DNA from: Streptomyces halstedii
GTDB lineage: Bacteria > Actinomycetota > Actinomycetes > Streptomycetales > Streptomycetaceae
Direction: 5' to 3'
Assembly: GCA_000720535.1 (NCBI GenBank)
Contig: JOAZ01000001.1
Coordinates: 124,001-188,000, forward strand
DNA: 64,000 nt
In this document: positions 23,307 to 38,869 of the stretch, in pieces
How the letters are laid out: each line of letters starts with the position of its first letter
How positions within the stretch are numbered: position 1 is the first letter of the stretch
Translations under genes and position numbers: made by a program
The notes under the pieces: model-generated
Database searches by the model: none
Told to the model about the DNA's origin: nothing
Seen by the model: the letters and a program-made list of their open reading frames with translations, nothing else

Positions 23307-23501
23307 ATGGCGATGACACTGCGACTCCCCGAAGACCTTGACGCGAAACTCACCGAGCGGGCTCGTCGGGAGGGTCGCAGCAAGCAGGAACTTGCCATCG
23401 AGGCCATCCGTGACGCCCAGCACCGGGCCGAGCTGAAGGTCGACGACGTCCTGGCTGAGCTGATGGACAGCGATGCGGAGATCCTGGACTACCTGAAGTG
23501 A
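23307..23501 (+). CDS. Ribbon-helix-helix antitoxin
   Basis: Antitoxin of 64 residues. The first 40 form a ribbon-helix-helix DNA-binding unit (MTLRLPEDLDAKLTERARRE then GRSKQELAIEAI), and the acidic C-terminal part (VDDVLAELMDSDAEILDYLK) should bind and neutralise the toxin encoded next. The toxin start overlaps its stop (GTGA). The gene sits directly behind a multi-half-site operator. First gene inside the island from the methyltransferase side. Confidence 0.85.
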   Translation: MAMTLRLPEDLDAKLTERARREGRSKQELAIEAIRDAQHRAELKVDDVLAELMDSDAEILDYLK

Positions 23502-23890
23502 TCCAAGTGCGCTACATCCATATCGACGAGATCCTGGCCATCGCTCACGCAGTCAACGATACCGAGCACAGCGTGCGTGACATGGGACTCTTGGTGTCAG
23601 CGATCGAACGGCCCCGGACGAACGTGTTCGGGGCCGAGCTGTATCCCACGCTGCACGAGAAGGCGGCGGCACTGCTGCACTCCGTCGCTCGCAATCACGC
23701 GCTGATCGACGGCAACAAGCGCACCGCCTGGCTTGCCATGCGTGTCTTTCTGCGGTTCAACGGCGTCAGCGCCAGTACCGCCCCGCCACCCGTCTCCGTG
23801 GCTGGCCCGTTCGTCGAGGAAGTCGCGCAGGACAACATCGATGTACCGGCTATTGCCAAGCGCCTGTCGGCCTGGTTCCCCGCTTCCTGA
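23498..23890 (+). CDS. doc: Doc-family toxin (Fic fold)
   Basis: Toxin of 130 residues. The Fic/Doc motif is intact: HALIDGNKRTAW with His67, Asp71, Asn73, Lys74 and Arg75. Doc proteins phosphorylate elongation factor EF-Tu and stop translation. The FIC domain covers most of the protein; length is typical of Doc (about 125). Coupled to the antitoxin by a GTGA overlap. A GTG 9 bp further in is an alternative start. A 30-codon relic of a close paralogue lies at 42777-42869. Confidence 0.88.
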   Translation: MIQVRYIHIDEILAIAHAVNDTEHSVRDMGLLVSAIERPRTNVFGAELYPTLHEKAAALLHSVARNHALIDGNKRTAWLAMRVFLRFNGVSASTAPPPVSVAGPFVEEVAQDNIDVPAIAKRLSAWFPAS

Positions 23891-24345
23891 CGTTCGACGT
23901 CGTGGGTACGGGACGGAATGAGGTTCTGGGAGCGGTGCTGGCTCCTGGCAGTCCGCCGGGGGACTGACCCGTTCGTTCAGCGGGTGGATTCCTATGCTTT
24001 CGCGAGACGGGGCAGTGGGCCGGCGTGGCGCGAGAATGGCGTCCCACGCGCCTTCCCGTTTGGGCGGCTGAGGTCCACATTGGCTACGGCGGTCTCTTCC
24101 CAACCAAGGTTCCTGCGGGCACAACTCGGGCGCGCAGGTGCGCCCGGACGAGGACTCGTGCGTCGGTGACGCGGTCGGGGCCCTCGTCGGTGGCCTCGGC
24201 GAAGAAGGAGGGCATCCTTTCGCCCTCCGATTGCCGAGCAGCCGCGGAGAACCGTGCGGCGCACGTCGGCGGCGAACGGCCCGTCGTAGGAGGCAGGGCC
24301 GTGCGGCTCCGTGGCCGATGCCACGAAGCCGCACGGTGGTTACCG
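23891..24345. other. Decayed stretch where an integrase gene would be expected
   Basis: 455 bp with no convincing gene. In many Streptomyces integrating elements the integrase follows the excisionase gene on the same strand and lies next to the attachment site, which would be here. Only the 43-codon open frame listed separately shows any coding-like codon use. Confidence 0.5.
24084..24215 (-). CDS. Possible small protein or gene fragment
   Basis: Open frame of 43 codons starting MPSFFAEATDEGPDRVTDAR. The first 17 codons all end in G or C, as in real Streptomyces genes; later codons do so less often. The ribosome site (GCGAAAGG) is too close to the ATG. It lies 130 bp downstream of the excisionase-like gene on the same strand. 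Either a small gene or the remnant of a larger one; unrecognised. Confidence 0.25.
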   Translation of the reverse strand: MPSFFAEATDEGPDRVTDARVLVRAHLRARVVPAGTLVGKRPP

Positions 24346-24582
24346 TCAGAAGCCGACGCTCGGATCGTCCGTGTCCTCTTCCGGGTCCACGCTGTACAGC
24401 GGGCGGTCCTCGATCCCCAGGGCGCGCATCAGCTCGCTGGTCGGAATCCTGTACCTACGTCCGATGCGGAGGACGGGGCAGGGGAACTCGTGCTCGCGGA
24501 TCAGCCGGTACGCGGTCGTTGAGCCGATTCCGAGTGCTCGGGCCGCCGTGCGCAAATCCACTGCGACGGGCAGATCGAACAT
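24346..24582 (-). CDS. Excisionase-like helix-turn-helix protein
   Basis: DNA-binding protein of 78 residues. It has the MerR/AlpA-type winged helix of excisionases: LRTAARALGIGSTTAYRLIR, then FPCPVLRIGRRYRIPTSELM. An acidic tail follows. Xis proteins of this type direct integrase-mediated excision and are encoded beside the integrase in Streptomyces integrating elements; here no integrase gene is found. The 255-residue gene is upstream on the same strand, 35 bp away. Confidence 0.78.
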   Translation of the reverse strand: MFDLPVAVDLRTAARALGIGSTTAYRLIREHEFPCPVLRIGRRYRIPTSELMRALGIEDRPLYSVDPEEDTDDPSVGF

Positions 24583-24617
24583 CTCCGTGAAACTGAGGCA
24601 GCCCTCTGCCGGGTCCT

Positions 24618-25385
24618 TCACCCTCGCCTCCCCGCAGGGCGAACCGGCCGGGTGTCCGCGCGGCGCCCGGGTCGTCGCCTCTTCCCGGGGCTGTGTCCCG
24701 CCGAGCGGTCCTGCGACCCGTCGTCGGTGTCGATGAAGATTCCCTGTCGGCGCAGATGCTCCGGGCGCACCCGGAAACGTAGCGGTGCGCACAGCCCGTC
24801 CGGGTCGTCCGGACGGTCGACCCGGATGTCCAGGCTCTCCGCCGCCGGAGCGTCCGCCTCCTCGCCGGACGAAGTGAGAGCGTGCTCCCCGGTGATGCGC
24901 TCGATCTGGGTGGAGGGAAGCTCCCGCAACCCTTCCCGGGCGAGATGCCACGCCCTGGCGCGCGCCGCGTGCAGCAGGGAGGAGTCGGTGAGACAGCTCG
25001 CGCCGTCCCGATCCGCCAGCTTCTCCAGGAGAGCCAGGACCATCTCGGCCTCCACGTCCGACCGGTCGGCCCGCAGGCGCGTGCAGACCCGGTGGACCGT
25101 CCCGGTCAACCGGGGCAGGGCCAGCCAGATCGCCAGGAGTTTCCCCGTGCTGTCTGGAGTCAGGTCGCTCTGCGCCGTGCGGATGACCTCCTTCCAGACC
25201 GCCGTGGCGAACTGCGGGTCGGAGCCGGGGCCGTACAAGGCCTCGTGCGTCTCGGTGGCGGTCAGCCGGACCGGATTGGCCTCGCCGGCGTCCGTGGGGA
25301 TGAGCACGAAGACCGCGTCACTGGTCTGGGGATCGTCGAAGTGCCGCCTCACCGAGGCGAACGCACTACTGTGCGGGGGATACAT
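24618..25385 (-). CDS. Hypothetical protein of integrating elements
   Basis: Protein of 255 residues that I cannot assign. Its position just upstream of the excisionase gene is common in actinobacterial elements. The N-terminus (MYPPHSSAFASVRRHFDDPQ) leads into a mostly helical body (about 60-170, with LLAIWLALPRLTGTVHRVC and DVEAEMVLALLEKLADRD), an acidic linker, and a basic tail (GKRRRPGRRADTRPVRPAG). The body is reminiscent of sigma-factor-like helices but no motif is decisive. The ATG 25385 has GAGAGGA upstream; the frame is open for 35 further codons. Confidence 0.7.
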   Translation of the reverse strand: MYPPHSSAFASVRRHFDDPQTSDAVFVLIPTDAGEANPVRLTATETHEALYGPGSDPQFATAVWKEVIRTAQSDLTPDSTGKLLAIWLALPRLTGTVHRVCTRLRADRSDVEAEMVLALLEKLADRDGASCLTDSSLLHAARARAWHLAREGLRELPSTQIERITGEHALTSSGEEADAPAAESLDIRVDRPDDPDGLCAPLRFRVRPEHLRRQGIFIDTDDGSQDRSAGHSPGKRRRPGRRADTRPVRPAGRRG

Positions 25386-25648
25386 CAGGAAATGTCCTCT
25401 CTTTGGGCTGCGGGAACCTGAGTCCGGAGGTGCTGGAGATACCGAGATGCTGGACGAGGTGGGTCCTGCGGTGGGGACGTACCGCCTCATATCCGCGTCA
25501 AGCGAAGACGAGTCCCACCAGCCTCACTTTGATGCGTGAACATGCGGTAGTGGTCTTCTCGACCAGGTAACGCTGCCTTTGACCACGAGCGTGTAACAAG
25601 CGAGGCAGTCAGGCCGCGAGCTCGCCGGTGACGGAATACGCGAGGCGG

Positions 25649-25677
25649 GTGGGTGCCCGTACGGAACGGGCACCCAC
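25649..25677 (-). terminator. Terminator hairpin for the small minus-strand gene
   Basis: Perfect 12-bp stem, arms 25649-25660 and 25666-25677, with a 5-nt loop. It lies 13 bp beyond the stop of the 52-codon gene at 25690, which supports that gene being real. Confidence 0.7.
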
Positions 25678-25689
25678 GAACTGTTGCGC

Positions 25690-25848
25690 TCAGGCGGTAT
25701 CGGAAGACGAGGTGTCCGGCGCCTCGGTGGGCGGGGTCGCCGGGGTGGTGTCCTCGGTCTGGACGGCCCCCCGCCGGCGGCGGCTCGGCGGCCAGTCGGG
25801 GGACTTGCGCAGACGGGCTGCCCGGCGGTTGCGCTGACGACTGTTCAT
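25690..25848 (-). CDS. Small basic protein, unknown function
   Basis: 52 residues: a strongly basic N-terminal half (MNSRQRNRRAARLRKSPDWP) and an acidic, Thr/Pro-rich C-terminal half ending in TSSSDTA. A short protein with separate charge blocks could bind nucleic acid, but this is a guess. A clean hairpin terminator directly follows. The ribosome site is weak (GAGAGGA about 12 nt from the ATG). Confidence 0.45.
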   Translation of the reverse strand: MNSRQRNRRAARLRKSPDWPPSRRRRGAVQTEDTTPATPPTEAPDTSSSDTA

Positions 25849-26093
25849 CGGGTTCGCGGTTCCTCTCTGATGAGTCGATGGATGACTAAGCCGCCGTTTC
25901 GTGCTTCTGCGAGCGGCTGGTGCCATCGTGCCCGGAGGTGAAGCGGGGCCGCAGAGTGAAAACTGAGGGATAACTGAGTCCCCGGGGGGCGTGAAGAAGC
26001 AAGCGCGTGTGAAGCGGCACGGCGCGGCGCACAGATGAAGGAGCGCCGGCGAGGGGCCGGATCACTGACTGCGGCGCGGTGAGGGGGAGGGCG

Positions 26094-28853
26094 ATGGAGG
26101 GGTACGTGCTGGGCCCGGTGCGAGCCGAAGGGGACGGCGGCAGGAGGGTGGTCGAAGGGTCGAAAATGGCGGCCCTGTTCGCGCTCTTGGTGACCTTGCC
26201 AGACTGCCGATGTAAGAGGAAGGACATAGCCGAAGTCCTCTGGGAGGGCGTCGAGGATGTCGGCGATCTGGTTGACCGCGTCGTCGCCGACCTGCGGAAG
26301 CGGCTGGGCCGGGAGTCCGTGCCCCATAGCGGCAAGTCGGGTTACTGCACGCTCCGCGTGCCGGTGGGAGACGTCGACCTGCTCCGTTTTCGCGAAAAGG
26401 TGAAGCATGCTGAGGGACTGACCTGCAAAGCGCAGTTCGAGCTGCTCGGTGCGGCCTTGGAGGAGTGGGACGGCGAGGACGAACCGCTGCACGGACTGTC
26501 CGAGACCGGCTTCCACTTGCGTCGGGCAGAGCTACGGGCCGAGTTGATGGCCGCCGTGTACGCGCGGCTGGACGCAGCCTACAAGTCCAGGGAGGTCAAA
26601 TGGCTGCGCGAGGAGACGGAGAAATGGTTCGAGCGCGCGCCAGAATTGCCCCAGATTTTCCGGTTCTATCTGCTTGCCCACGCAGACCTGCCGGAGTCCC
26701 AACGTGAGCGGCTCATCAAGAAGTGGGAGAAGCGCAACGGAAAAGCGGATGTCGATGTACAGAGCGCCATCGACCAGGTCCGAGGAGAGAGCCGCCGGGC
26801 GGGTGGGGTGCTCCTGCCCCCCGTTCCCGACCAGTTGCCCGGCGGCAGGCGCAAGCCGATCGGGCAGAACGAGCTGATCGGCGACCTCTTCGAGGCCGTG
26901 TGCGAGGAACAGGATGCCGGCAATCTGGCGCTGGTCCTGATCAGCGGCATGGCGGGTGTCGGGAAGACCACGGTGGCCGAGAACCTCGCCGGTCGGCTTC
27001 GGGAGCGCTTTCCCGACGGGGTGCTGCGCGGCGAACTGAACGGATTCGCCGACGGAGACGTGCGGCCCGCCGAACCGGACGAGGTCCTGGACGGCTTTCT
27101 GGCCGCGCTGCCGCCCTACACCACGGTGACCGGAACGGAGAGCAAGAGCAACGCGCTGCGGTCGGCGCTGGCCCACCGATCGGTGCTCATCGTCCTTGAC
27201 GACGCGCTCAGCGTCCAGCAGGTGCTGCCGCTGCTTCCCGGAGACGGTACCTGCGCCGTGATCGTCACCAGTCGTAACGACCTCTTGCGGCTGCAGTCCG
27301 AGAGGAAGGTGCTGTTCCGCAAGATGGAGCCGCTGCGCGAGGCGGACGCGCTGGAGGTGCTCCAGGAGAAAGTGTCGGCCGAGGACCGGGCCAAGCACGC
27401 CATGGCCTTCAGTGAACTTGTCGACCTCTGTGGCCGACTGCCGCTGGCCCTTGTGGTGGTGGCCCGGCTTCTGGAAGGTGGTGCGCGTCCGCTGCACACC
27501 CTCCCTCTCCTGGTGCAAGAGATGAAGGAGGAGCGGAAGCGGGCGATGTTGGACACCCTGGACCTGCCCGAGCACGAACTGTCGGTCCGCGCAGCACTCA
27601 ACTGCTCCGTGCGCGTGCTGAATGAGGAAGCCCGACTGCTGCTGTGGCAGCTCGCCGTCCACCCCGGGCCCAGCGCTTCCTGGGAGGCGGTGATGAATCT
27701 GGGACGGGCAGTGGACGAAGGGACGCGTACCGACCGGGCCCTGGTGGACCTCGTGGCAGCGAACCTCGTGGAACATCACGGCGACCGCTACGGGCTGCAC
27801 GACCTCGTGCGGGCCTTCGCCCTTCGGTACGTGCGGCCGGTGTCGGACGGAGAGAACGCGGAGATCGAGCGGGCGACCGTACGGCAGGTGCTGGAACACC
27901 AGCTGCACAACGTCCGAGCCTGCGACCGGGTGCTCGACCGCGAACGTGCCCTGCCCACCGGCGAGCCCGGAGCGGTCAGGGCCACCGACCCCGCGGACCT
28001 CGCGGAGGCGATGGCGTTCCTGGACGAGGAGTACCCCGCCGTCCAGCGAGGCATTCGCTTAGCGATCAATCGGCGTATCGACCGGTACGTGTGGCTGCTT
28101 CCGATGGCCCTGGTCATCTACCAGTGGCGCCGTCGCCTGCTCGATGATGCGCGGCAGAACCTCCGGTACGCCGCCGAGGCGGCGGAAACCGTCGCCGGAC
28201 CGGTCGATCGCGCCATGGTCTACCGGTCGCTGGCAGGGACCCACTGGCGGCTCGGTGAGTACGACTTGGCTGTGGGCAACCTGCGCAGGGCCGTCCGGCT
28301 CAGCGAGGAGGACCGCAGCACGGAAGGCCGGCTGAGCCTTGCCCGTACGCTGCACCGGCTCGGACTCACCCTGCGCAAGCAGGGCGACCGGACGGGAGCG
28401 GAAGAAGCGCTCGGCCGCGCACTGGAGTTGTGCCGGGAGGTGTCCGACCGGGTCGGAGAGGCGGCTGTTCTGAACGTCCTCGGCGCGATCGACCTCGACC
28501 GGGGCGAGCACGAGCAGGCGCTCCGCCGGTGCGCCGACGCCCTGGGCGTAGTGGAGCGCACGACGGAGCGCAGCGGCCTGGCCGATGTGCTGTTCACCCT
28601 GGCCAAGGTGCACCTGGCCCGTTCCGAACGGGACGAGGCCATCACCCTGTACCGGAAGGCCTCCGACGTCTACCGCGAACAGGAGAACTGGCCCAACGAG
28701 GACAAGGTACGGATGCTCTTCGCTGATGTCCTGGTGTCCGCTGGCGACACCGACTCGGCGGTGCGGGAGCTGGAGAGAGTCATCGTGCTGCGTGAGCTGA
28801 TGGACGGTGAGGGGGTGCGGGAGGTCCGAGAGCGGCTGGAGGGGCTGAGGTGA
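26094..28853 (+). CDS. STAND NTPase, SARP/BTAD-NB-ARC-TPR architecture
   Basis: Protein of 919 residues built like AfsR-type regulators. A winged-helix and BTAD-like N-terminal part (about 1-230) is followed by an NB-ARC NTPase with P-loop GMAGVGKTT (285-293), LIVLDDALSVQQVLPLLPG, the sensor TSRNDL and the winged-helix HDLVRAFA, then TPR repeats from about 680 to the end. Such proteins use ligand-triggered oligomerisation; in defence islands they act as infection sensors. A TTA codon (28059-28061, Leu656) should make translation depend on the bldA tRNA. ATG 26094 is preceded by GGGGGAGGGCG. Confidence 0.85.
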   Translation: MEGYVLGPVRAEGDGGRRVVEGSKMAALFALLVTLPDCRCKRKDIAEVLWEGVEDVGDLVDRVVADLRKRLGRESVPHSGKSGYCTLRVPVGDVDLLRFREKVKHAEGLTCKAQFELLGAALEEWDGEDEPLHGLSETGFHLRRAELRAELMAAVYARLDAAYKSREVKWLREETEKWFERAPELPQIFRFYLLAHADLPESQRERLIKKWEKRNGKADVDVQSAIDQVRGESRRAGGVLLPPVPDQLPGGRRKPIGQNELIGDLFEAVCEEQDAGNLALVLISGMAGVGKTTVAENLAGRLRERFPDGVLRGELNGFADGDVRPAEPDEVLDGFLAALPPYTTVTGTESKSNALRSALAHRSVLIVLDDALSVQQVLPLLPGDGTCAVIVTSRNDLLRLQSERKVLFRKMEPLREADALEVLQEKVSAEDRAKHAMAFSELVDLCGRLPLALVVVARLLEGGARPLHTLPLLVQEMKEERKRAMLDTLDLPEHELSVRAALNCSVRVLNEEARLLLWQLAVHPGPSASWEAVMNLGRAVDEGTRTDRALVDLVAANLVEHHGDRYGLHDLVRAFALRYVRPVSDGENAEIERATVRQVLEHQLHNVRACDRVLDRERALPTGEPGAVRATDPADLAEAMAFLDEEYPAVQRGIRLAINRRIDRYVWLLPMALVIYQWRRRLLDDARQNLRYAAEAAETVAGPVDRAMVYRSLAGTHWRLGEYDLAVGNLRRAVRLSEEDRSTEGRLSLARTLHRLGLTLRKQGDRTGAEEALGRALELCREVSDRVGEAAVLNVLGAIDLDRGEHEQALRRCADALGVVERTTERSGLADVLFTLAKVHLARSERDEAITLYRKASDVYREQENWPNEDKVRMLFADVLVSAGDTDSAVRELERVIVLRELMDGEGVREVRERLEGLR

Positions 28854-28883
28854 CCCGCCCGGTCGGCGGCCGTCAGCTCACCG

Positions 28884-29792
28884 TCAAAGCCGGGGCGGAT
28901 GCGTGCGATAGTACTCGGTCGGGTCCGGGCGCAGGGGCTTCGATGGCCGTTGCGAGCCGAGCTGGGGTAGGTAGCAGCGGAGCCGATCGAACACTTCACG
29001 GACATCCGAGGGGCGCTCCGCCGCCTTCCACCGGACCATCCACAGCGCCAGGGAGGCGAACTCCGGGGGCAGTTTGGCGAGCCGGTCGGCCGGCAGCACT
29101 GGGGTGCCCTCTTCCGCCCGCTCGTCCTGTCCGCCGTAGGGCAGGCGCATCACGGTCATCTCCAGCAGGATGCAGCCGAGTGCGAAGATGTCCGCTTGCC
29201 GCGTCAGACCTGACGGGCACGCGTCGGACTGCTCGGGGGAGGCCCAGCCGCGCGTGCCGCGTGCGCATTCCGTCTCTTGATCCACCACGACCGCGTGGCC
29301 CATGTCAATGAGCCGGAGACGGCCGTCCGGCTGCACGATGACGTTCTCGGGCTTGAGATCGCAGTGCACCAGATTCCGGTCGTGGACTTCTGTCAGAATT
29401 TCGCACAGTTGGCCGATGACGGCCGCAACGGTCCCAGGATCCTTAACGGGCAGGGCCGCCGACAGGACTTTCTGCAGTTGGTGCCCTTCGACAAATTCCA
29501 TGACCAGGCACCGGCGTCGCCGGTGTGTCCCCGTGGCGATGACTTCGGGAATCGCCTGGATTCCCGTCAGCATCATCATGCGTGATCCCTCTTTGAGGAG
29601 TTCATCGCCGGCCCAGTGGAAATCGCTCTCGGGTCCGAGGTCCCGGGCCTTCTGAAGCTTCAACGCCACCTTCTGCCCGCTGTTGCGGTCACGCCCGAGG
29701 AAAAGGTCGCCTTGGCCGCCGTCGCCGACCATGTCCAGCACTTCGTAGCGCCTCTCCACATCGCCGACCTCCTCGATCTCCCTCACGGCCAT
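28884..29792 (-). CDS. Serine/threonine protein kinase, soluble
   Basis: Eukaryotic-like kinase of 302 residues. Glycine-rich loop GDGGQGDLFLG, Lys45 in ALKLQK, catalytic loop HCDLKPENV (Asp145), metal-binding DMG (163-165, in place of DFG) and the substrate-site RGTRGWASPEQ are present. No transmembrane helix or PASTA sensor follows; the C-terminus is basic. It converges with the STAND gene (30 bp apart) and diverges from the nuclease gene (33 bp apart), so it shares a promoter region with the pPIWI-RE operon. The ATG has GGAGG upstream. A defence role is inferred from position only. Confidence 0.88.
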   Translation of the reverse strand: MAVREIEEVGDVERRYEVLDMVGDGGQGDLFLGRDRNSGQKVALKLQKARDLGPESDFHWAGDELLKEGSRMMMLTGIQAIPEVIATGTHRRRRCLVMEFVEGHQLQKVLSAALPVKDPGTVAAVIGQLCEILTEVHDRNLVHCDLKPENVIVQPDGRLRLIDMGHAVVVDQETECARGTRGWASPEQSDACPSGLTRQADIFALGCILLEMTVMRLPYGGQDERAEEGTPVLPADRLAKLPPEFASLALWMVRWKAAERPSDVREVFDRLRCYLPQLGSQRPSKPLRPDPTEYYRTHPPRL

Positions 29793-29825
29793 CCACCTTT
29801 CCTCCGCACGGAAATGGAGCATGAA

Positions 29826-31388
29826 ATGTCGCAGCCATGGCTGCCCCCCGACGGGGTGACCCGCACGTCCGACGTCATCACGGTATCCGCCGGAATGTTC
29901 AAGGGGGGAGAGTTCCGATGCCCCGCCGCTGACGCTCTCAAGACCCGCGGTTACCACACCACCGCCCCCGTACCGCGCCGCCGTGAGCGGTTGGAGCACT
30001 TCGCCCTGGGCCCCTTCATGGCTGCCTGCGACATCCGTTCGGGGCCTGCCGGCCACCGGCCCCGGACACGTACCGGGCCCTTGCACGACGGTCTGCGGAC
30101 CTGGTCGGAGCATGGCGTGACGTTGTACGAGGCGGCCTTCCCCCTCGACCCGGAACGCCCCCTGCACGAGGTGCCCGAGCCGTGGACGTACCGCTACCGT
30201 CCGTCCGGTCCCGACCCGCGCGACGCCCAGGAGTACCGCCTCACCGTGTGGGGCCGCTGCCTGGCTTCCCCCGACGGTGCCTACCGCGAGCTTCGTCTGC
30301 CCGTGCACCGCCTGCGGGACCTGCCGCCCGACGGGTTCACCGCGGCCGTCGCCCTGGTGCTGGCCGAGGGCGCCCCCGGACCACCGCCGGAGCACGTACG
30401 GATCGTAGAGTTCGCGCTCTTCGACGGCCGTACGCGTGAACTCTTCGCGGGAAGCCGGGAAGAGGCGCGCGCCCGGTACCGCGAACACGGCCCCGCTGCT
30501 CTGGCTGGCGTACTGGACGGACGAAAATACCGCCCAGGGTCGGCCTGTGCCGGATGCCCCTACCTGTCGGTGTGCCCGGCCCTGCGCACAGCGCCCGGAC
30601 TGCTGGGCATCGAGGCGCACGACCGGCCCCGCCGCACCTGGTCGGTCACCAACGGGCGGGCCTACCGAGCCTGCCCGGCGCGTGACCATATGCGCCGGCT
30701 GCACCTGCCCACGGCGGATTCCGTCGAACGCGAGGTGACGGCCGAGCGCGGCCGGGCGCTGCACGCCTACCTCGCCGAACGGCACGCCCACGGATCGCCT
30801 CGGCCCTGCACTGTCGAGGTCCCCGAGGAGTGGGTACCGGAGGGATTCGACCTGCCCGCACACGAACGCGCACTCGGCACCCTGATGTTGCGGCGGCACG
30901 CCGCGGTCTGTCCGCTGCGGTACGTCGGGGACGGTGCGGATGTGCGGACCGAGCCCCGGGTGGTGCGGCACGACACAGCAGCCGACGTGGTGGTCCTGGC
31001 CGCGCCCGACCTGCTCTACCGGGATGCCGGGTCATGGGTGTGGCGCGAGACCAAGACCTCCGTCACCGATCGGCGGTTCGACCGCCCCCTGCTGGAGCGC
31101 TATCCGCAGTTGGCCCTGGCCGTCGTGCTGATCGCCCGCGGTGACCTGGGCGGTGATCCGTTCCGCGCGCGGGTCGAGCTGGAGGTGCTGCGCCCCGACG
31201 GCGCCGACCTGGAGATCATCGATCCCTTCGCCCCGGCCAATCGGGTCACCGCGGAGAAGGTACTGCGGGCGATGGTGGCCGACTGGCACCGGGACGACCA
31301 GTACGCGGCCCGGCCCGGACGCTCCTGCGAGCGATGCGAAGTGGCCCGCTGGTGCACGGCGTCGTCCGTCAGCGAGGCCGCGGCATGA
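29826..31388 (+). CDS. PD-(D/E)XK nuclease with cysteine cluster (Cas4/RecB-like)
   Basis: Predicted nuclease of 520 residues, first gene of the pPIWI-RE operon. The core reads PDLLYRDAGSWVWRETKTS, giving Asp395, Glu408 and Lys410 in the D-x12-ExK spacing of RecB-family exonucleases, with RYPQLALAVVLI after it. Cysteines in SACAGCPYLSVCPAL, RACPARD and the C-terminal CERCEVARWC would ligate an Fe-S cluster, as in Cas4 and AddB. The N-terminal half is unassigned. ATG 29826 has TGGAGC upstream; ATG 29814 is an alternative. The stop overlaps the next ATG. Confidence 0.8.
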   Translation: MSQPWLPPDGVTRTSDVITVSAGMFKGGEFRCPAADALKTRGYHTTAPVPRRRERLEHFALGPFMAACDIRSGPAGHRPRTRTGPLHDGLRTWSEHGVTLYEAAFPLDPERPLHEVPEPWTYRYRPSGPDPRDAQEYRLTVWGRCLASPDGAYRELRLPVHRLRDLPPDGFTAAVALVLAEGAPGPPPEHVRIVEFALFDGRTRELFAGSREEARARYREHGPAALAGVLDGRKYRPGSACAGCPYLSVCPALRTAPGLLGIEAHDRPRRTWSVTNGRAYRACPARDHMRRLHLPTADSVEREVTAERGRALHAYLAERHAHGSPRPCTVEVPEEWVPEGFDLPAHERALGTLMLRRHAAVCPLRYVGDGADVRTEPRVVRHDTAADVVVLAAPDLLYRDAGSWVWRETKTSVTDRRFDRPLLERYPQLALAVVLIARGDLGGDPFRARVELEVLRPDGADLEIIDPFAPANRVTAEKVLRAMVADWHRDDQYAARPGRSCERCEVARWCTASSVSEAAA

Positions 31389-32524
31389 GGGCGGGGTCGG
31401 CCGACGGGGCCGATCGGCCGAACGCCAGCGAGGCGCCCGAGGGCGTGGGCAGCGACATCTTCGGCGAACTCGCCCGCATGGTGGCGGCTCTCTCCGAGGT
31501 CCAAGGGCTCCGCTCCTTTACCCTGCCCTATCCCGGCCTCGCCCAGCGGGCGCTGGATCACACGGTGATGCGCTGCCTCAATGCGGGGGAGGCGCCGCCG
31601 AGGAGTCTTCCGGAACTGTGGGAGTGGTGCCGGACCAGGCCGTCCGACGACCCACTCTTCGCGGTCCCCTCCTCCCTGGTGTCGCCGGGCACCACGCTGG
31701 TGCACCGGGTCGGCCGGATGCCGACCCGGTCGTGTCTCGAGGTGGCCTCGCACGGACCGGACGGAGGCGTGGCGGCCCACGCCCGCGCGCTCCTCGGGGA
31801 CCTGCACGCGCGGAGTGGAACGGAGGAGCGCTACCGTCAGTGCAGGGCGTTCCTGGCGCGTCACCCGGTCGTCCACCAGCAGGACCGCTTCGCGCCGGGT
31901 TGGAACAGGGCGGTCTGGAGCCGGGTCAAGAACCTCTACGGTCCGTTGCCCGAGTTCCTGCTCGTCGACGGAGACTTCCTGTACTGCCCCTCGTGCAGGC
32001 TCCCCGCGCTGCCCCGGGACGGTGCCGTACCCGGACCGTCCGGCACCGGCGCGGAAGTCTGGTGCGAGGGGGAGGACTGCCCGCGCGACGCCCCTCCGCA
32101 GCTCATCCGTGAGCCGGACCAGGCTTGGATCCTGCAGCGCTCGCTGCGGTGGTACCTCGTACTGCCGCACCGCACCGACGAAGCCGCCCGGGAGACACTG
32201 GAGCGCGCCGGAGTCGCGTACGAGACCCTGCCCGGCCTTCTGCCCTCCTACCGGCTCAGGGATACCGGCCCCCGCATCGTGGACATCCAGGCGTACGACC
32301 GCCTGCAGCCGGCGCTCCTCGCAGCCCATCTCACCGACAACACACCCCTCGCGGACCGCACCCTCGTCGTGGTCCCCGACGCGCTCGCCGGACGGGACGG
32401 CTACCGGCAGGCCTTCACCGACGCCCTTCCCGCGCTCCTGCGGGACCGGCTGGTGCTCACCACCCCCATGGACCTTGTGCCCGACCTGGGACAGGCCCGG
32501 CGAGAGGAGAAGGACGATGCGTAG
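31385..32524 (+). CDS. pPIWI-RE-associated REase-like protein, probably lacking catalytic Lys
   Basis: Protein of 379 residues in the operon slot of the pPIWI-RE restriction-endonuclease partner. A zinc-ribbon-like region has CPSC and CEGEDC (about 200-240). The C-terminal part (about 245-370) follows the partner's layout as I remember it: a helical WILQRSLRWYLV, then IVDIQAYDRLQPALLAAH, TLVVVPDALAGRDGY and LVLTTP. The motif expected to read VDVK reads VDIQ, so the catalytic Lys seems replaced by Gln. The family assignment rests on pattern memory and position. It overlaps the nuclease by ATGA and the helicase by 8 bp. Confidence 0.62.
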   Translation: MRAGSADGADRPNASEAPEGVGSDIFGELARMVAALSEVQGLRSFTLPYPGLAQRALDHTVMRCLNAGEAPPRSLPELWEWCRTRPSDDPLFAVPSSLVSPGTTLVHRVGRMPTRSCLEVASHGPDGGVAAHARALLGDLHARSGTEERYRQCRAFLARHPVVHQQDRFAPGWNRAVWSRVKNLYGPLPEFLLVDGDFLYCPSCRLPALPRDGAVPGPSGTGAEVWCEGEDCPRDAPPQLIREPDQAWILQRSLRWYLVLPHRTDEAARETLERAGVAYETLPGLLPSYRLRDTGPRIVDIQAYDRLQPALLAAHLTDNTPLADRTLVVVPDALAGRDGYRQAFTDALPALLRDRLVLTTPMDLVPDLGQARREEKDDA

Positions 32525-35500
32525 CATCACTCCGCCTTTGACCGACGTGTTCAACGCGCTCAAAGCCTTTCTGGGGTCCTCCGTGCCCCAGCCCGCGCTG
32601 GAAGCCCTCTGCCAGGTCGAACTCGGCCTGTACCTCCAGCAGAAGATGATGCCGGGCAGCCCCGCGGGCAGCGCCTGGGTGCTGTTCAGCGGGTACGGGT
32701 TCGCCGAGGCGCACCGGGCACCGCTGCCATCCGATGCGGCGAAGACCCTGCGTATCGCCAGGTACTCGCTGTGGACGCTGCGCCGGAGCCGTACCTGGCT
32801 CGAGGCGCTGGACACCTACCAGAGGTTCGACCCCAGGGTGCGCGCCTACGACGTACCGGACGCCGAGACACCCGCTGCCCGCCGCGACCTCTCCGTCGGC
32901 GGCGACCGCTTCTCCGTCTACGAACAACTGCTGCGTGCCGCACCGCCGCTGGCGGGCAGGCGCCTCCCGGTCGCGGGTCATGGCCCGCACGCCTTCCCCG
33001 TCAGTCGCACCATGGCCGTCGTCGACCTGCCGCCGGTCCCCGCCATCCCCCTCGTCGCCCACGACATGGACCTGGAACCGGTCGGCGGCGGCGAGCCCTT
33101 GAGCTTCACCAAGGAGAACCTGGAGCGCACGGCGGCGGAGATGGACGCCCAGCACGCTCGCTCCGGCAAGGGCCGGGCACCACGGTGGCTGGAGCGGCTA
33201 CGGTCGTTCGACCTGTCCACCAAGGAGAACGGAACCTTCCACAAGGCGAGGAAGGACGAGGACTTCGCCTTCACGGTCGACGGCATCCAGCACCTGCTCG
33301 GCATCGTCGGCGCCGGCAAGAGCACACTGCGTGACATCATCGCCGTCCATCTCGCCAAGCTGGGCAAACGCACCACCATCGTCGTCACCGATGTCGCGGA
33401 GGTGCTGAAGCTCGTCAGGCTCTACGACCTCTACACCGACGGTGCCGCCGCACCCGTGCTCGGCTCCTCGGGCCGTGAGCGGCACGCCCAGCGGTTGCAC
33501 CGTCGGCTGGCGGGCCGGGGCGAGCACCGACTGCTCGCCCACGACGACCCCGCCTTCGCCTACCTCGGCACGTCCTGCCTGCTCAACGTCAGACGGCAGG
33601 GCGCCACGTCGACGACCGAACCACTCGCCTACGGTGAGGCACCCTGCTCCCGGCTCCGACCCCCCTCGGCCCTGCGGCGTGCCCCGAGCGACGGACGGCA
33701 CTCCGCGTGGCAGAAGAGGGTGGCGAGCTGCCCGTACTGGTCCGCCTGTCCCCGTCACCACGGAGCTCGGACCCTGGTCGGCGCCCTGATCTGGGTGGCC
33801 ACGCCGGCCGGGCTGATCGACTCCTCGCCGCCCCGCCCTCAGAACGGCGAGCGCATCCGCTTCCTCGAACTCGCCTGCCGCCGTAGTGACCTCGTGATCA
33901 TCGACGAGGCCGACCGTGTCCAGATGCAGCTCGACCGGACTTTCGCACCCGCCGTGGTCCTCGCCAGCGACGAGGACAAGGGCCTCATCGACCAGCTGAG
34001 CCGGCACAAGATCCGGGAACTCGCGGCCAGCGGACGCACCCAGCTCTCCGAACGGGACGTCGAGACCTTCGCCGCAGCCCTCAACACCGCGGGCGCGGCC
34101 ACCGACCGGCTGTACGCGATGCTCGTCGCCGGGTACGAGCTGCGCAAGTGGGTGCGGACGGGCTACTTCAGCGCCTGGACGCTCCAGCTGGGGCTCCTCG
34201 ACGAACGCTACGAACTCCCCGACGACAGCGGTCCGGACCACCCTCATCACGCCCCCCGCGAGGCTCTCGGGAAACTGCTCGACGCGTTCCGGGACAACCC
34301 CTTCGGTGATCGTCACCGCAGGACGGAGGAGGACTTCAGCCAGCTGACCGCCCTCCTCAACGAACTGCTCCACACCGGAAACCCGGAGAACACCCGGCGC
34401 CGCCTCACCGAGGTCATGGACGAGGCCTTCGCCATCGGCCCGATGTACATGGCTGCCCGGCAGCGGAAGTACCAAGAGGCGTACGACGAGTGGCGGCGCG
34501 AGGAGGAGGAACAGGAGAAGAAGCGCGGACGCCGCAGGAAGCCCAAGCCTCCGCCCGAGACTCCCGAGGAATGGCGGAAGCAACTCGCGGAGCGCTTCGA
34601 GTTCACACTGTTGCTCAGCGCCCTGGAACCACGGCTCGCCATGATCAACGCCATGTGGCCCCGCGTCGAGGCCGCCCTCAGCCTGGGTTTCAACACGATG
34701 TACCGCCGACCGCTCGACTACGGCCCGATGGTGCCCGAGGCCCCGATGGGCAATGTTCTCGGCTTCCAGTTTCGGGTCCCGGGTGAGGACAAGGGCGGAG
34801 TCCGCAGTGGCGAACTGACCTTCTTCCGGTGCAGCGGCGTCGGACGTGAGCTGCTGCGCGCCATCCCCGATCTCACCTCCGTCGACGGCAGGCCCGGCGC
34901 CCACTTGCTGCTCATGTCAGGCAGCAGCTGGGCGGGCGCGTCCAGCCGCTACCACGTCTGCGTCCCGGTCGGTGTGGTCATCGAACCGCCTGCCGAGGTG
35001 ACCGAACGCATTGCCAACGAGAGCTCCATGCGCTTCGAGTTCATCGACGACGGCGACGAGAAACTGCGCATGTCGGGAACCCGTCCGGACGACCGCCCGG
35101 AGAAGTTGCGCCGCATCGCGTGCCATCTAGGTGAGGGCGGAGACGAGTACGAGGTCACTGAAGGTGGTCCGCTCCAGCAGGAGTTGCTCTCTCTTCCTCC
35201 AGGGCGCGACCAGATCCTTCTGCTGGTCGGCAGCTATGCCGAGGCACGTATGGTGGCCGACACACTGCACAACCTCAACGTCCGCTGGCGCAACAAGGTG
35301 CTGTGCCTGGTGTCGGACGACGAGGAGATCACCGCGGAGGACGAGGCACCGTCCGCCTACCACGCCCGATCACTGCGCCGGGGCGACGTCGAGCACCTGA
35401 AGGACCTCGAGGCGGACATCCTGGTGGCGCCCCTGCTCGCGCTGGAACGTGGCCACAACATCCTCAACGAGGACGACGAGGCGGCCATCGGCACGGTCTA

Positions 35501-36026
35501 CTTCCTGGCACGGCCCCATCCGCACCCGGAGGACCTCCACCTGGCTGTCAACGCCGTCAACGACTGGGTCGTCCGCGCCGTCACCGGCGGTGACTTCGCC
35601 ACCCTGGTACAGGGAAAACCCACCGTCGAGGAAGGAGCGGAGGAGTTCCGCCGCCTCGCCCGTTCGTACTGGTACCAGGTACTCGCCCGTTCGATGGCGT
35701 GGAGCCGTCTCGACGACGATGTACGGGAACAGGTCACCTGGGACATGCTGGTCCTGTTGTGGCAGGTGATCGGGCGACTGGTACGCGGTGGCGTACCGGC
35801 CCGGGTGGTCTTCGTCGACGCCGCCTTCGCCCCCAACCGCGGCGCCGTACCGGCGCGGCCCGACACCCCCGAATCCAGTCTGCTGCACAGCGTCCTCGCC
35901 GTCCTGGACCCGCATTTCGACGGCGGCACGACGACCGCAGAGGAGCAGTTCATCGTCCGCGCCCTGTACGCGCCACTGCGCAGCATGCTCACCCGCCTGC
36001 TCGCCGCCGTACCTGCCCACCCGTAA
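32517..36026 (+). CDS. DinG/XPD-like Fe-S helicase of the pPIWI-RE system
   Basis: Large SF2-type helicase of 1169 residues. Walker A is GIVGAGKST (Lys268) and motif II is IIDEADRVQ (Asp463). Four cysteines between them, Cys354, Cys377, Cys405 and Cys411 (TSCLLN, PCSRL, SCPYWSACP), match the Fe-S domain of XPD/DinG helicases. The second motor domain ends with QVIGRLVRGG, a motif VI-like Gln/Arg segment. The N-terminal 250 residues are probably an accessory domain specific to the system. A charged segment with EEEEQEKKRGRRRKPKPPPE lies near 665. This helicase type is the standard partner of pPIWI-RE proteins. Confidence 0.85.
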   Translation: MRSITPPLTDVFNALKAFLGSSVPQPALEALCQVELGLYLQQKMMPGSPAGSAWVLFSGYGFAEAHRAPLPSDAAKTLRIARYSLWTLRRSRTWLEALDTYQRFDPRVRAYDVPDAETPAARRDLSVGGDRFSVYEQLLRAAPPLAGRRLPVAGHGPHAFPVSRTMAVVDLPPVPAIPLVAHDMDLEPVGGGEPLSFTKENLERTAAEMDAQHARSGKGRAPRWLERLRSFDLSTKENGTFHKARKDEDFAFTVDGIQHLLGIVGAGKSTLRDIIAVHLAKLGKRTTIVVTDVAEVLKLVRLYDLYTDGAAAPVLGSSGRERHAQRLHRRLAGRGEHRLLAHDDPAFAYLGTSCLLNVRRQGATSTTEPLAYGEAPCSRLRPPSALRRAPSDGRHSAWQKRVASCPYWSACPRHHGARTLVGALIWVATPAGLIDSSPPRPQNGERIRFLELACRRSDLVIIDEADRVQMQLDRTFAPAVVLASDEDKGLIDQLSRHKIRELAASGRTQLSERDVETFAAALNTAGAATDRLYAMLVAGYELRKWVRTGYFSAWTLQLGLLDERYELPDDSGPDHPHHAPREALGKLLDAFRDNPFGDRHRRTEEDFSQLTALLNELLHTGNPENTRRRLTEVMDEAFAIGPMYMAARQRKYQEAYDEWRREEEEQEKKRGRRRKPKPPPETPEEWRKQLAERFEFTLLLSALEPRLAMINAMWPRVEAALSLGFNTMYRRPLDYGPMVPEAPMGNVLGFQFRVPGEDKGGVRSGELTFFRCSGVGRELLRAIPDLTSVDGRPGAHLLLMSGSSWAGASSRYHVCVPVGVVIEPPAEVTERIANESSMRFEFIDDGDEKLRMSGTRPDDRPEKLRRIACHLGEGGDEYEVTEGGPLQQELLSLPPGRDQILLLVGSYAEARMVADTLHNLNVRWRNKVLCLVSDDEEITAEDEAPSAYHARSLRRGDVEHLKDLEADILVAPLLALERGHNILNEDDEAAIGTVYFLARPHPHPEDLHLAVNAVNDWVVRAVTGGDFATLVQGKPTVEEGAEEFRRLARSYWYQVLARSMAWSRLDDDVREQVTWDMLVLLWQVIGRLVRGGVPARVVFVDAAFAPNRGAVPARPDTPESSLLHSVLAVLDPHFDGGTTTAEEQFIVRALYAPLRSMLTRLLAAVPAHP

Positions 36027-36057
36027 GCGCCGAACCCCTGTCCCAGGAGGTAATTCC

Positions 36058-38799
36058 GTGTACCACCACATTCGCGTCGCGGCCTACGAACCCGACCCGC
36101 TCCAAGGACCCTGGCGGGAGGAGATGAAAGTGCTGCGGCTCGGCGAGGACCTGCACGCCGAGCTCACCGGGATGCATGCCGAGGCGGACAAGAACTCCGT
36201 TCACCCCCACCGGCTCCCCGTGCGCAGGCTCAACTCCCTGCTCCAGGCGATGGCGCCAGGCGTCATCGCGACCGGCCGCAACGCCGGGACGGATGGCCGT
36301 CTGCCGTGGCTCTACGCGCGGGAAGCCGTCCCGCCGGACGTGCTGGCCCCGGTGGTAGGAGCCTGGGCGGCGGGCATGCACCGGGAGGACGACGACTCGG
36401 AGGGAGCCGACCTCGAGGAGAGGCTCCGCTCCGATGACCCGGCCGAGACGGTAAGTCTGCCCCACTGGGAGACGGAACCGGTCGACCTCGCCGAGAGTGT
36501 GCTCTCGGCGGGCGGAACCGCCGAACCCGCCGCGCGGCTCTACAGCCTACTGCCCGAGTGGATCGCCTTCCGGCTGGCCGCCCGGACGTTCCGCACGGGC
36601 GGCAGCACTCTCCACTTCCGAGTCGAGAGCTCGGGTGACGGCGCGCGACTCGTCTCCTGGCCGCCTCAGCGCTACGAGCGCCGCGGGCAGACCTGGTACT
36701 ACTCGGCCTGCCTCACCATCACCGTCCACACCGTGCCGTTCGCCCCGCGTTTCCGCGTCCATGTGTCCACCCGCGTACGCCGGTGGGCCACCCGACTGGA
36801 CGTACGCCCCCACCAGCTCGGCGGTACGACCGTCCTGCTCGACGCCCCACTGCCGTGGCCGGAAGGGCCGGACCGCGGCCACCGGCTGATGGTGAACACG
36901 CTGGGCTACGACCGGCGGTCGAAGAAACTGGCCTGGCGCCGGCACAGCCCCGCACCACTCGTGCCCGAGCTGGACATCGTGCGCAACTACCCCCGGCCCG
37001 AAGCACTCTTCTCCGACCCCGAACGCTGGATCAACGGTTCCGGGGACGTGGCCGCCGGCATCGTCTACCACCCGTCGATCGGCCCGCACGAGGTCGGACC
37101 CGGGCTGATGCCACGGGAGCGGGCGGATCTGGACGCCTGGGTCGAGGAAGGGCTGCGCCCCCTGCTGACCCGGGTCCCCGACCTCACGCGCGTCTCCCGG
37201 AGCAACACACCCTCCCTGCTGCCCCGTTCCGGCGCCGGCGGCGGCCCGGGCGTCCGCGACGCCCAGCTGGCTCTGCAACGGCGTACGGCGCTGACACGCG
37301 CACTGAACGGCCGCCCCCTGGAGATCGACGTCTTCTGGCAGTCCCCGGAAACCCGTGCGGCGCTGCTCGCCGAGCTGCCCAAGCTCATTGGTCTTCCCGC
37401 CGGGCAGCAAGTGCCGTCGGCCGACGGGGAGACCTGGCAGTGGCAGTGCGAGGGGGTCGACATCCGCGTCCGGGCCCGGCCCGTGGGACCTTTGGCCGAC
37501 GCTCTGCCGACCACCCGAGCCCGCGGGCGCCTCAGGGCCGTCCGGCTGGCCGAGGCCATCGAAGGGCGCTGCGGGCTCGTGGCGGATCGGGCGGACCCGC
37601 TCCTCGGCGGGACCGGAGTCGTGATCACGGAGATCGCTGGCAAGGAGCGCTTCGCCGCCGTCCCGGACTCCGACCCCAAGCACGCGCTGCGCATCGCCTG
37701 GGCACGGCAGGGACGGCTGACCCAGTTCGTGAACTCGCCCGACGACACCGACAGCGCTCTGGAGCACCGGGTCAGGTGGACCTGGCTGGACGCCTTCCGG
37801 CAGCTGGGCGCGATCAGCCCGCCCGCCCATCGGGTGGGAGCCGGCATTCCGGGCGACCTTCAGTATGCGGCGCTCTGGCTCGTACGCCACACCAGGAAGG
37901 GGCCTACGCGATGCCCCGTCCACCGGCTGGTGGCGGTGCGGGTGCGCCCCGGGGACGGGCCGGGCGTCATCGAGGGGTGGGACGCAGAACGAGCCGAATG
38001 GGTGCCGTATCCGAAGCTGTTGCTGCTGCTCTCCCAGGCACGGGAACCGGCGGCGAGCGGCGGGAAGGAGATCGGCACGGGGAAGCTCGTCGATGACTCG
38101 CCAGCCCCGGGAGGATCCCGGCCCGCTACCCGCCCGGGCGTGGAGCAGGACAGGCAGCGGGAGACCGAGCGGCAGATCCGGGCACTGCTCTTCCAGCTCC
38201 GCGACCGCCCGACGCTGCTGCTGGCGGACGCCGGCAATCTGCGCCAGTGCTGGCCTGGCCTGCGCAACGGTGCACTGGACCGCGACACGCTCGGCTTCGG
38301 GGCCGAACCCGCCCAGCGGCACACGCTCTACGGCCACGACCTGCGGATGTTGCTCGTACGGGACGCCAACGCCCGGGGTGAAGTGGCGGAGTGGTACGCC
38401 CACGACACCGAGGACGGGGTCGGCTTCGCCGAGGGTGTGTGGGGGACGGCGGATACGGAGGGCCGTGTCTTCGCGAGCACGGCCTCGAAGCCGCACACGG
38501 TGGCGAAACTACCGAAGGGGCTCATGAAGCTGGTGCCTACGGCACAGGGCCGGACAGCGCCCGGGAAGACCGCGTGGAACCCCGGGCAACTGGAGATCAC
38601 CGTGCTCGGCTGTCTGTCGGAGAAGGCGCTGACGGACTCGGGGCGTGCGGGTGACTCGCCCGACCGGCCGGCGGAGTGGGCGACGCTCGCGCACCAGTTG
38701 CGTTACCACGACGACTACCCGCCGCTCGCTCGGCCTCTCCCGCTGCACTTGGCACGTCTCGCCGGTGAGTACGTGCTTCCGGTGGCCGGAACGAAGTGA
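36058..38799 (+). CDS. pPIWI-RE protein (prokaryotic PIWI, RE family)
   Basis: Protein of 913 residues. The N-terminal two thirds match the pPIWI_RE_X (formerly DUF3962) region (WREEMKVLRLG, LPEWIAFRLAARTF, VSTRVRRWATRLDV). The C-terminal RNase H-fold PIWI-like domain has TLLLADAGNLRQCWPGLRNG with Asp724, MLLVRD (Arg768), GEVAEWY (Glu775/Glu778), and the family ending HQLRYHDDYPPLARPLPLHL then ARLAGEY. The RE name refers to conserved Arg and Glu; these residues are candidates. The family is predicted to bind guide-target duplexes in defence. Strong ribosome site AGGAGGTAATTCC before the GTG. Confidence 0.87.
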   Translation: MYHHIRVAAYEPDPLQGPWREEMKVLRLGEDLHAELTGMHAEADKNSVHPHRLPVRRLNSLLQAMAPGVIATGRNAGTDGRLPWLYAREAVPPDVLAPVVGAWAAGMHREDDDSEGADLEERLRSDDPAETVSLPHWETEPVDLAESVLSAGGTAEPAARLYSLLPEWIAFRLAARTFRTGGSTLHFRVESSGDGARLVSWPPQRYERRGQTWYYSACLTITVHTVPFAPRFRVHVSTRVRRWATRLDVRPHQLGGTTVLLDAPLPWPEGPDRGHRLMVNTLGYDRRSKKLAWRRHSPAPLVPELDIVRNYPRPEALFSDPERWINGSGDVAAGIVYHPSIGPHEVGPGLMPRERADLDAWVEEGLRPLLTRVPDLTRVSRSNTPSLLPRSGAGGGPGVRDAQLALQRRTALTRALNGRPLEIDVFWQSPETRAALLAELPKLIGLPAGQQVPSADGETWQWQCEGVDIRVRARPVGPLADALPTTRARGRLRAVRLAEAIEGRCGLVADRADPLLGGTGVVITEIAGKERFAAVPDSDPKHALRIAWARQGRLTQFVNSPDDTDSALEHRVRWTWLDAFRQLGAISPPAHRVGAGIPGDLQYAALWLVRHTRKGPTRCPVHRLVAVRVRPGDGPGVIEGWDAERAEWVPYPKLLLLLSQAREPAASGGKEIGTGKLVDDSPAPGGSRPATRPGVEQDRQRETERQIRALLFQLRDRPTLLLADAGNLRQCWPGLRNGALDRDTLGFGAEPAQRHTLYGHDLRMLLVRDANARGEVAEWYAHDTEDGVGFAEGVWGTADTEGRVFASTASKPHTVAKLPKGLMKLVPTAQGRTAPGKTAWNPGQLEITVLGCLSEKALTDSGRAGDSPDRPAEWATLAHQLRYHDDYPPLARPLPLHLARLAGEYVLPVAGTK

Positions 38800-38869
38800 G
38801 CGGGGAGTATGTATCCGCTTCCTGAGCGCGTCTGGTGCACTCCTTGCTGGGATCACTGGGCGTCCGCCG

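Follow-up and report, generated by a model that had tools for sequence, protein, structure and literature searches.

The DNA analysed here, a 64,000-nt stretch of Streptomyces halstedii (GCA_000720535.1, contig JOAZ01000001.1, positions 124,001–188,000, forward strand; hereafter, the window), carries a four-gene pPIWI-RE operon. The restriction endonuclease (REase) domain of the usual module has lost its catalytic site, a separate PD-(D/E)XK nuclease of the Fe-S type is encoded in front, and a Ser/Thr protein kinase gene stands divergently next to the operon. We favour, at a probability of roughly 0.55, a reading of the operon as a pPIWI-RE system that has swapped its nuclease and is under regulation; its role would most likely be defence against invading DNA, with guide binding, DNA cleavage, and regulation by phosphorylation as predicted features.

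The four operon proteins and their active sites

The operon is composed of gene A (29826–31388; ATG start, 520 aa), encoding the added nuclease (PprPDDEXK); gene B (31334–32524; ATG, 396 aa), encoding a pPIWI_RE_Y and REase protein; gene C (32517–36026; ATG, 1169 aa), encoding a pPIWI_RE_Z and DinG-like helicase protein; and gene D (36058–38799; GTG, 913 aa), encoding the pPIWI-RE protein. All four lie on the plus strand at the positions given in a preliminary description of this DNA, with the tight spacing reported there (A and B overlap by 55 bp, B and C overlap by 8 bp, and C and D are 31 bp apart).

The pPIWI-RE module described in 2013 (PMC3702460) has three genes with the REase gene first, and section 6 of that paper names no further nuclease. 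The window shares with it the Y and REase protein, the Z and DinG-like helicase protein, and the X, MID, and RNase H protein, in the same strict order and overlapping or close together. The differences are that A stands ahead of the REase gene, that the REase domain has no intact site, and that a kinase gene and an AfsR-like gene lie next to the operon. Each of the four window proteins matches a PADLOC-DB v2 model over nearly full length (PprPDDEXK, PprRE, PprDinG, and PprPIWI), and the flanking genes have no Ppr name among the matches listed. Because PADLOC-DB version 2 has a model for each component under one name stem, the four components, as judged from these profile matches, were already recognised at the database level by 2023. 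The added nuclease is therefore a known component rather than one special to this locus, and it recurs in actinomycetes. No paper describing the Ppr-named set was found among the matches listed from the literature searched, and the passages of PMC7641849 listed for 'PIWI-RE' are unrelated to pPIWI-RE.

The protein encoded by A matches PDDEXK_1 in Pfam (E 4e-23) and PprPDDEXK in PADLOC-DB v2 (E 3e-207). Cas4/AddB-type nucleases are defined by a PD-(D/E)XK fold with a D and an ExK motif, with one cysteine before the core and three cysteines after it. In A, the catalytic residues D395 (31008) and E408-x-K410 (31047 and 31053) are located in the C-terminal half, and the cysteines form two sets, C32/C241/C244/C250 and C283/C501/C504/C510, accompanied by the further conserved C328 and C362. 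D395, E408, K410, and the ten cysteines are kept in 109/109 distinct A sequences from four-gene loci and in 6/6 solo A sequences (L123 is a fragment of A in which the site residues cannot be scored). The fold neighbours of A in the PDB are Cas4, ACE1, AdnA, AddAB, Dna2, and RecB, with matches that span chiefly residues 236–518; a sequence search of the PDB gave nothing significant (best E 0.42, a Cas4). By its Pfam match, active-site residues, and fold neighbours, A is a Cas4/AddB-type Fe-S PD-(D/E)XK protein in sequence and predicted fold, with an iron cluster and cleavage activity predicted, in agreement with the earlier proposal of a Cas4/RecB-like nuclease with a cysteine cluster at the front of the operon. 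Because the cysteine pattern repeats and the order of secondary structure is similar between the halves, A may have arisen by duplication of a whole domain. When the two halves are compared as profiles, the similarity is moderate (E 1.3e-5 over 85 columns, local probability 81%) and confined to their C-terminal parts.

The protein encoded by B matches pPIWI_RE_Y (Pfam, residues 43–181, E 6e-40) and pPIWI_RE_REase (Pfam, residues 286–385, E 5e-6), the latter just above the cut-off (27.0 versus 26.1 bits); a search of the S. halstedii genome with this REase family at E 0.001 gave 0/1 despite that score. Cysteines 218, 221, 244, and 249 are zinc-ribbon-like by eye. The REase site was defined from conservation in 50 three-gene loci (section 6 of PMC3702460 lists no REase residues), which carry E, D, D, D, and K in PD-(D/E)XK order. 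In the window, residues R307, Q319, and Y321 occupy D, D, and K positions. Misalignment as the source of the apparent loss was considered and rejected, since B aligns without gaps with live relatives (IVDIQAYDRLQPALL versus WAVDVKDRVNPVLL) and the lysine is still lost when the alignment is shifted by two residues. The REase-fold member of the usual module, which the preliminary description had left unassigned to a clear protein, is present as B, but its catalytic site is gone.

Selection on B is uneven along its length. In seven comparisons within the window clade, the ratio of nonsynonymous to synonymous substitution rates (dN/dS) is 0.20–0.27 for A, 0.18–0.24 for C, and 0.22–0.26 for D; within B, it is 0.19–0.26 for the Y domain and 0.30–0.61 for the REase part. 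The median REase/Y ratio is 1.7 in the dead clade versus 0.8 in the live four-gene and three-gene sets, from pairs that are non-independent and in many cases saturated; absolute dN/dS is inflated in distant pairs, and the ratio alone is used. Because the Y domain stays constrained while the REase part relaxes, B is probably kept for something other than cutting.

The protein encoded by C matches pPIWI_RE_Z (Pfam, E 2e-46) and contains a Walker A motif (GAGKST, 33309), a DEAD box (33903), motif VI (QVIGRLVRGG, 35763), and a four-cysteine insert (C354/C377/C405/C411) that is conserved across four-gene and three-gene loci alike. The Fe-S helicase of the preliminary description is thus recognisable from its motifs as DinG-like, with bound iron predicted. 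A PDB sequence search with C gave nothing significant (best E 0.25).

The 913-residue protein encoded by D was rightly named a pPIWI-RE protein (PADLOC E 0). It matches pPIWI_RE_X (4e-111), RNaseH_pPIWI_RE (4e-79), and MID (4e-27) of Pfam consecutively in one chain, and most of the protein is predicted to adopt an Argonaute-like fold; a PDB sequence search gave nothing significant (best E 0.51). By spacing against the published R639 and E718, we assign the RE pair to R763 and E846. In D sequences from loci with A, the R is kept in 103/106 and the E in 104/106; in those from loci without A, the R is present in just 21/56 on the same alignment.

The RNase H site of Pseudomonas stutzeri PIWI-RE is active, with D525 and D610 as site residues (PMC10991935). 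In the predicted structure of D, the first RNase H strand spans residues 602–611 and the fourth spans residues 719–724. W607 is accordingly placed at the putative D525-equivalent position and D724 at the D610-equivalent position, a placement taken from model strands and spacing rather than from superposition on the P. stutzeri protein. The spacing agrees roughly with that of P. stutzeri PIWI-RE after removal of a poorly predicted insert, in which residues 667–690 have a predicted local distance difference test score <50. At position 607, all 162 D sequences have W, H, Y, or K and none has aspartate; position 724 is D in 27/106 sequences with A and 24/56 without A. On this predicted placement, the window protein falls outside the catalytically active pPIWI-RE subset, which has both RNase H aspartates.

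Since the REase site of B is lost and D appears to be without the first RNase H aspartate, A is, by its residues, the only operon protein in the window with an intact nuclease site. In the working model of 2013, cutting falls to the REase domain and requires an intact site in B; the window sequence carries replaced residues there.

REase loss in relation to gene A

The preliminary description had proposed a survey of gene neighbourhoods for the extra nuclease. Among 200 loci, A adjoins B-C-D in 132, 52 have B-C or B-C-D without A, 7 have A alone, and 9 have less. The set was gathered partly through searches with A or the four-gene D, so these counts are not frequencies; the contigs in particular are the best 80 of 115 relatives of the four-gene D query, of which 77/80 have A-B-C-D, and are hence biased. 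Distinctness was judged on the last 300 residues of B or the last 420 of A, and the same locus can come from two sources. In 392 Streptomyces genomes, PprPDDEXK matches 64 places, 56 of them at E <1e-50; seven weak places (E 6e-5 to 8e-4) were left out of the neighbourhood count, and an A fragment (E 2e-19) stands alone. Of the 56 strong places, 54 directly precede homologues of B, C, and D (in pieces in L115; split by a contig end in L053, with only the start of D) and two are solo, and we therefore reject the possibility that A is a chance neighbour. Four-gene relatives occur in Streptomyces, Kitasatospora, Nocardiopsis, Actinospica, Nocardia, Actinophytocola, Prauserella, Umezawaea, Virgisporangium, Wenjunlia, Frankia, and Actinomadura. 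Hidden, diverged copies of A in three-gene loci were likewise rejected (relaxed scan, best E 0.04); two of the 50 three-gene loci, L222 and L244, have just 558 and 1542 bp before B, and D is unmatched by the final profile in 10/51 three-gene rows.

Of the 159 distinct B sequences, those with the second D, the D/E, and the K all intact come from 50/51 loci without A and 72/108 loci with A. The exception among the 51, L144, has a dead B and a contig end directly before it, at which A cannot be scored. The REase site is thus lost in 36/108 distinct four-gene loci, the window included, and in 0/50 assessable three-gene loci. Three groups account for the losses: the 31 sequences of the window clade; L111/L115/L147, in which both Ds are changed to G and the K is kept; and L193/L197 from Frankia and Actinomadura. 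L115 (genome G699) has B, C, and D in several pieces across open reading frames (ORFs) with A intact, as in a decaying copy; it is counted for A and B and excluded from the C and D trees.

In the helicase tree (157 tips; L125, with a split C ORF, excluded), the three REase losses are three separate events, all within A-bearing clades. The B and D trees agree on three losses, and the A tree joins L111/L115/L147 to the window clade. The trees are midpoint-rooted, and support for monophyly of the A-bearing loci is low in the C and B trees (0.17–0.18). A-bearing branches make up 31% of the at-risk branch length, so that three of three losses would fall on them by chance with a probability of 0.03, in a test with few events that was framed after the pattern was seen. 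Fisher values, which take no account of relatedness, were given no weight. A link between REase loss and the presence of A is therefore suggestive. If the loss were instead neutral drift in one successful lineage, unrelated to A, the small number of losses and the concentration of 31/36 dead B sequences in one clade would be as expected. However, 0/50 three-gene loci are dead though A-less branches make up 69% of the at-risk branch length, and the strong constraint on the Y domain across the seven pairs argues that B is still used. We regard drift as quite improbable.

The preliminary description had suggested that the nuclease activity moved to the added protein. For the window clade, the suggestion fits the active-site survey, but 72/108 four-gene loci keep the REase site; as judged from site residues, such a transfer is limited to three lineages and is not general to the added gene. 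In the trees of B, C, and D, L117 and L118 group with three-gene loci although they carry A (their placement in the A tree is weak), and A was therefore gained at least twice on these trees, if it was absent at first.

Six solo relatives of A (L061, L062, L075, L076, L121, and L122) form one clade (support 0.99) outside pPIWI-RE loci. In L075 and L076, the solo A is followed by an ORF of about 265 aa (with a weak PIN match in L075 only) and by an ImmA/IrrE peptidase gene in the opposite orientation, possibly as another small module.

Proposed working of the system

In the system that we propose, D, without a complete RNase H site, would bind a guide strand or an RNA–DNA hybrid and mark the target, C would open or track along the DNA, and A, which is AdnA/Cas4-like, would cut or resect the target DNA. 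B would serve as a non-catalytic subunit that holds the complex together via the Y domain and the zinc ribbon; in other pPIWI-RE systems, the REase domain of B would cut. Once A had joined the operon, the REase site would have become dispensable and been lost in three lineages, including that of the window. Control of operon switch-on would probably lie with the kinase next to A, together with the AfsR-like regulator in the window clade. The 2013 authors proposed for the module that targets are found by a guide or by sensing of RNA–DNA hybrids (PMC3702460).

Two fold neighbours of A can be compared with it. ACE1 is an Argonaute-associated Cas4-family protein (PDB 9iac and 9iab) with chains of 266–269 residues that are 11–12% identical to A over the match, whereas A has 520 residues, with an extra N-terminal half that bears its own four-cysteine set. 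In AdnA, the nuclease domain occupies residues 787–1039 of a long chain, whereas A stands alone as a protein, with a DinG-like helicase and an Argonaute-like protein encoded next to it. The AdnA nuclease domain is fused to a helicase in AdnAB, and AdnA is the nuclease of an end-resecting machine.

In another possible role, A would make or trim guide strands or 3' overhangs for D, as Cas4 does in CRISPR adaptation, with cutting lost or carried out by host enzymes and silencing achieved through binding. The presence of Cas4 and Argonaute-associated ACE1 among the fold neighbours is in line with this role, and restriction of RSF1010 plasmids in Synechococcus elongatus involves an Argonaute as well as a Cas4-like nuclease (PMC10653904). 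On the other hand, the catalytic half of A is AdnA-like, and a guide-making A leaves unexplained why REase loss is restricted to loci with A. We consider this role unlikely.

Several observations weigh against the nuclease-swapped defence system. Both nuclease sites are kept in 72/108 distinct four-gene loci, so A is not simply a replacement. The losses are just three in number, with 31 of the 36 dead B sequences in one clade, and the A tree, contrary to the other trees, places L111/L115/L147 with the window clade. Solo A is found outside pPIWI-RE loci (7/200, one a fragment), indicating that A has other uses, and a divergent kinase within 400 bp is absent from 30/108 four-gene loci. In addition, P. 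stutzeri PIWI-RE has an active RNase H and gives a ciprofloxacin rather than a phage phenotype (PMC10991935).

A bolder reading is a kinase- and AfsR-controlled, Argonaute-like interference complex whose own PIWI and REase sites are gone and whose sole blade is a recruited two-module AdnA/Cas4-like nuclease. We put it forward tentatively, at somewhat less than even odds. If true, a PIWI system would have exchanged its effector and come under a STAND/kinase switch of the kind known from antibiotic regulators. Within the reach of our literature searches, three results are new: the active-site survey, the linkage with the kinase and the AfsR homologue, and the arrangement of the cysteines of A in two halves. 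pPIWI-RE proteins have been described since 2013, and we recognised a single biochemical study of a family member in the literature searched. With A intact throughout and the REase site intact in some homologues but lost in others, the family offers a ready comparison that makes it directly testable which protein cuts. The locus and its relatives also parallel, in a distant PIWI family, the pairing of Argonaute with a Cas4-family nuclease.

Flanking regulators and the conserved block

The Ser/Thr protein kinase gene (28884–29792, minus strand, 302 aa) is divergent from A, with start codons 33 bp apart, and is a conserved partner of A-containing loci. It adjoins a gene for an AfsR homologue (26079–28853, plus strand, 924 aa) with a SARP-like N-terminus, NB-ARC, and TPR, which is conserved in the window clade. 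Both neighbours were overlooked in the preliminary description; its four genes at 29826–38799 are real, but the conserved unit is larger and includes these upstream genes.

A divergent kinase ORF is located within 400 bp of A in 33/36 dead-REase and 45/72 live-REase four-gene loci (78/108), and in 0/50 three-gene loci (49 of them with at least 1.2 kb of upstream sequence); the lone three-gene locus with a kinase (1/50), L242, has it 1.5 kb away. With 34 Pkinase places per 7.74 Mb in the S. halstedii genome itself, these counts led us to reject a chance neighbourhood. No kinase match at all was found in 25 live four-gene loci, and the upstream ORFs were inspected in 13 of them. In L119 (12571–14501), L175 (1363–3531), and L180 (1358–3568), a divergent helix-turn-helix (HTH)-like and N6-methyltransferase-like ORF, assigned by eye and lying about 100–180 bp from A, replaces the kinase. 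Three other kinase-less four-gene loci have an upstream ORF of 297–333 aa of unknown kind.

The PADLOC matches of the kinase are to other defence kinases (mad6 and PD-T4-6), and none among the best 25 of 35 families is Ppr-named; its best PDB match is StkP/PknB. The AfsR-like protein matches the solved AfsR over residues 6–904 (E 4.5e-34). NB-ARC and TPR score above the Pfam cut-off, and the N-terminal DNA-binding domain alone scores below it (Trans_reg_C, E 0.022, 15.2 versus 26.2 bits). By these matches, the protein has the SARP-NOD-TPR architecture of AfsR. Its PADLOC matches, among those listed, are only four TPR or weak models, none Ppr-named. The kinase and the AfsR homologue are present in 37/37 window-clade loci fetched (30 distinct; in several, the AfsR-like gene runs off the end of the fetched stretch). 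An AfsR-like match above 80 bits is found in 2/88 live four-gene and 0/51 three-gene loci, with 2–4 kb upstream in most.

In Streptomyces coelicolor, AfsK, encoded near afsR, phosphorylates the STAND regulator AfsR, with little effect on activation by AfsR (PMC10936776). The window likewise has an AfsR-like protein with a Ser/Thr kinase gene alongside; the known pair acts on antibiotic genes, whereas the window genes flank a nuclease operon. The window kinase is likened to AfsK by gene position. Together, the two genes suggest a link between the nuclease system and Streptomyces signalling. The literature searched, among the matches listed, gave no description of such a link, and nothing usable on MADS kinases or ACE1.

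Nucleotide conservation in the closest relatives extends over a block of approximately 24195–38828, which is 95–97% identical in the genomes G443 and G428. The left-hand neighbour genes, such as a TRAM methyltransferase gene (21544–22887), have the same order and are 82–91% identical. Because the identity of the block exceeds that of the same-order left flank, the comparison points to recent transfer of the block into a fixed site. A tRNA scan of the window found none.

A further alternative is that the operon is a DNA repair or replication-stress module rather than a defence system, in which helicase, Fe-S-type nuclease, and hybrid-binding PIWI protein would process stalled forks or R-loops under stress-kinase control. 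AdnA, AddAB, Dna2, and RecB, the fold relatives of A, are repair nucleases. Deletion of P. stutzeri PIWI-RE causes ciprofloxacin sensitivity (PMC10991935), and the plasmids searched (72,556 records) yielded no four-gene locus; among them, D matches 5 records, all below 60% identity, and A matches 2, both without B-C-D in the annotated stretch. However, a mobile accessory system better fits the patchy occurrence of the RNase H domain (86/295 Streptomyces genomes), the presence of three-gene pPIWI-RE relatives on plasmids, and the identity of the block relative to its flanks. We judge a repair role improbable. A search for PF18156 in 60 relatives of G766 gave no match, and neither did the controls, so no absence is shown.

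Among the plasmid loci, L077 (9606–11359, a Streptomyces plasmid) has a three-gene pPIWI-RE module followed by two close genes, the second annotated as a restriction endonuclease. In L206–L209, from Nostocales plasmids, the REase gene of three-gene modules is annotated as 'Fis family transcriptional regulator', possibly a misannotation.

To the left of 26079, membership of the block would follow from nucleotide conservation only. This part contains a small HTH_17 gene (Pfam; ORF 24346–24951, minus strand) and an overlapping 290-aa ORF (within 24346–25490, minus strand) with no Pfam match. The HTH_17 protein has a weak PADLOC match to mad1 (the kinase matches mad6). A 214-bp segment left of the block (23441–23654) has an 84% copy to the right of the block in G443 (L087, 2656–2869); the two copies have the same orientation relative to the block and are perhaps a flanking repeat.
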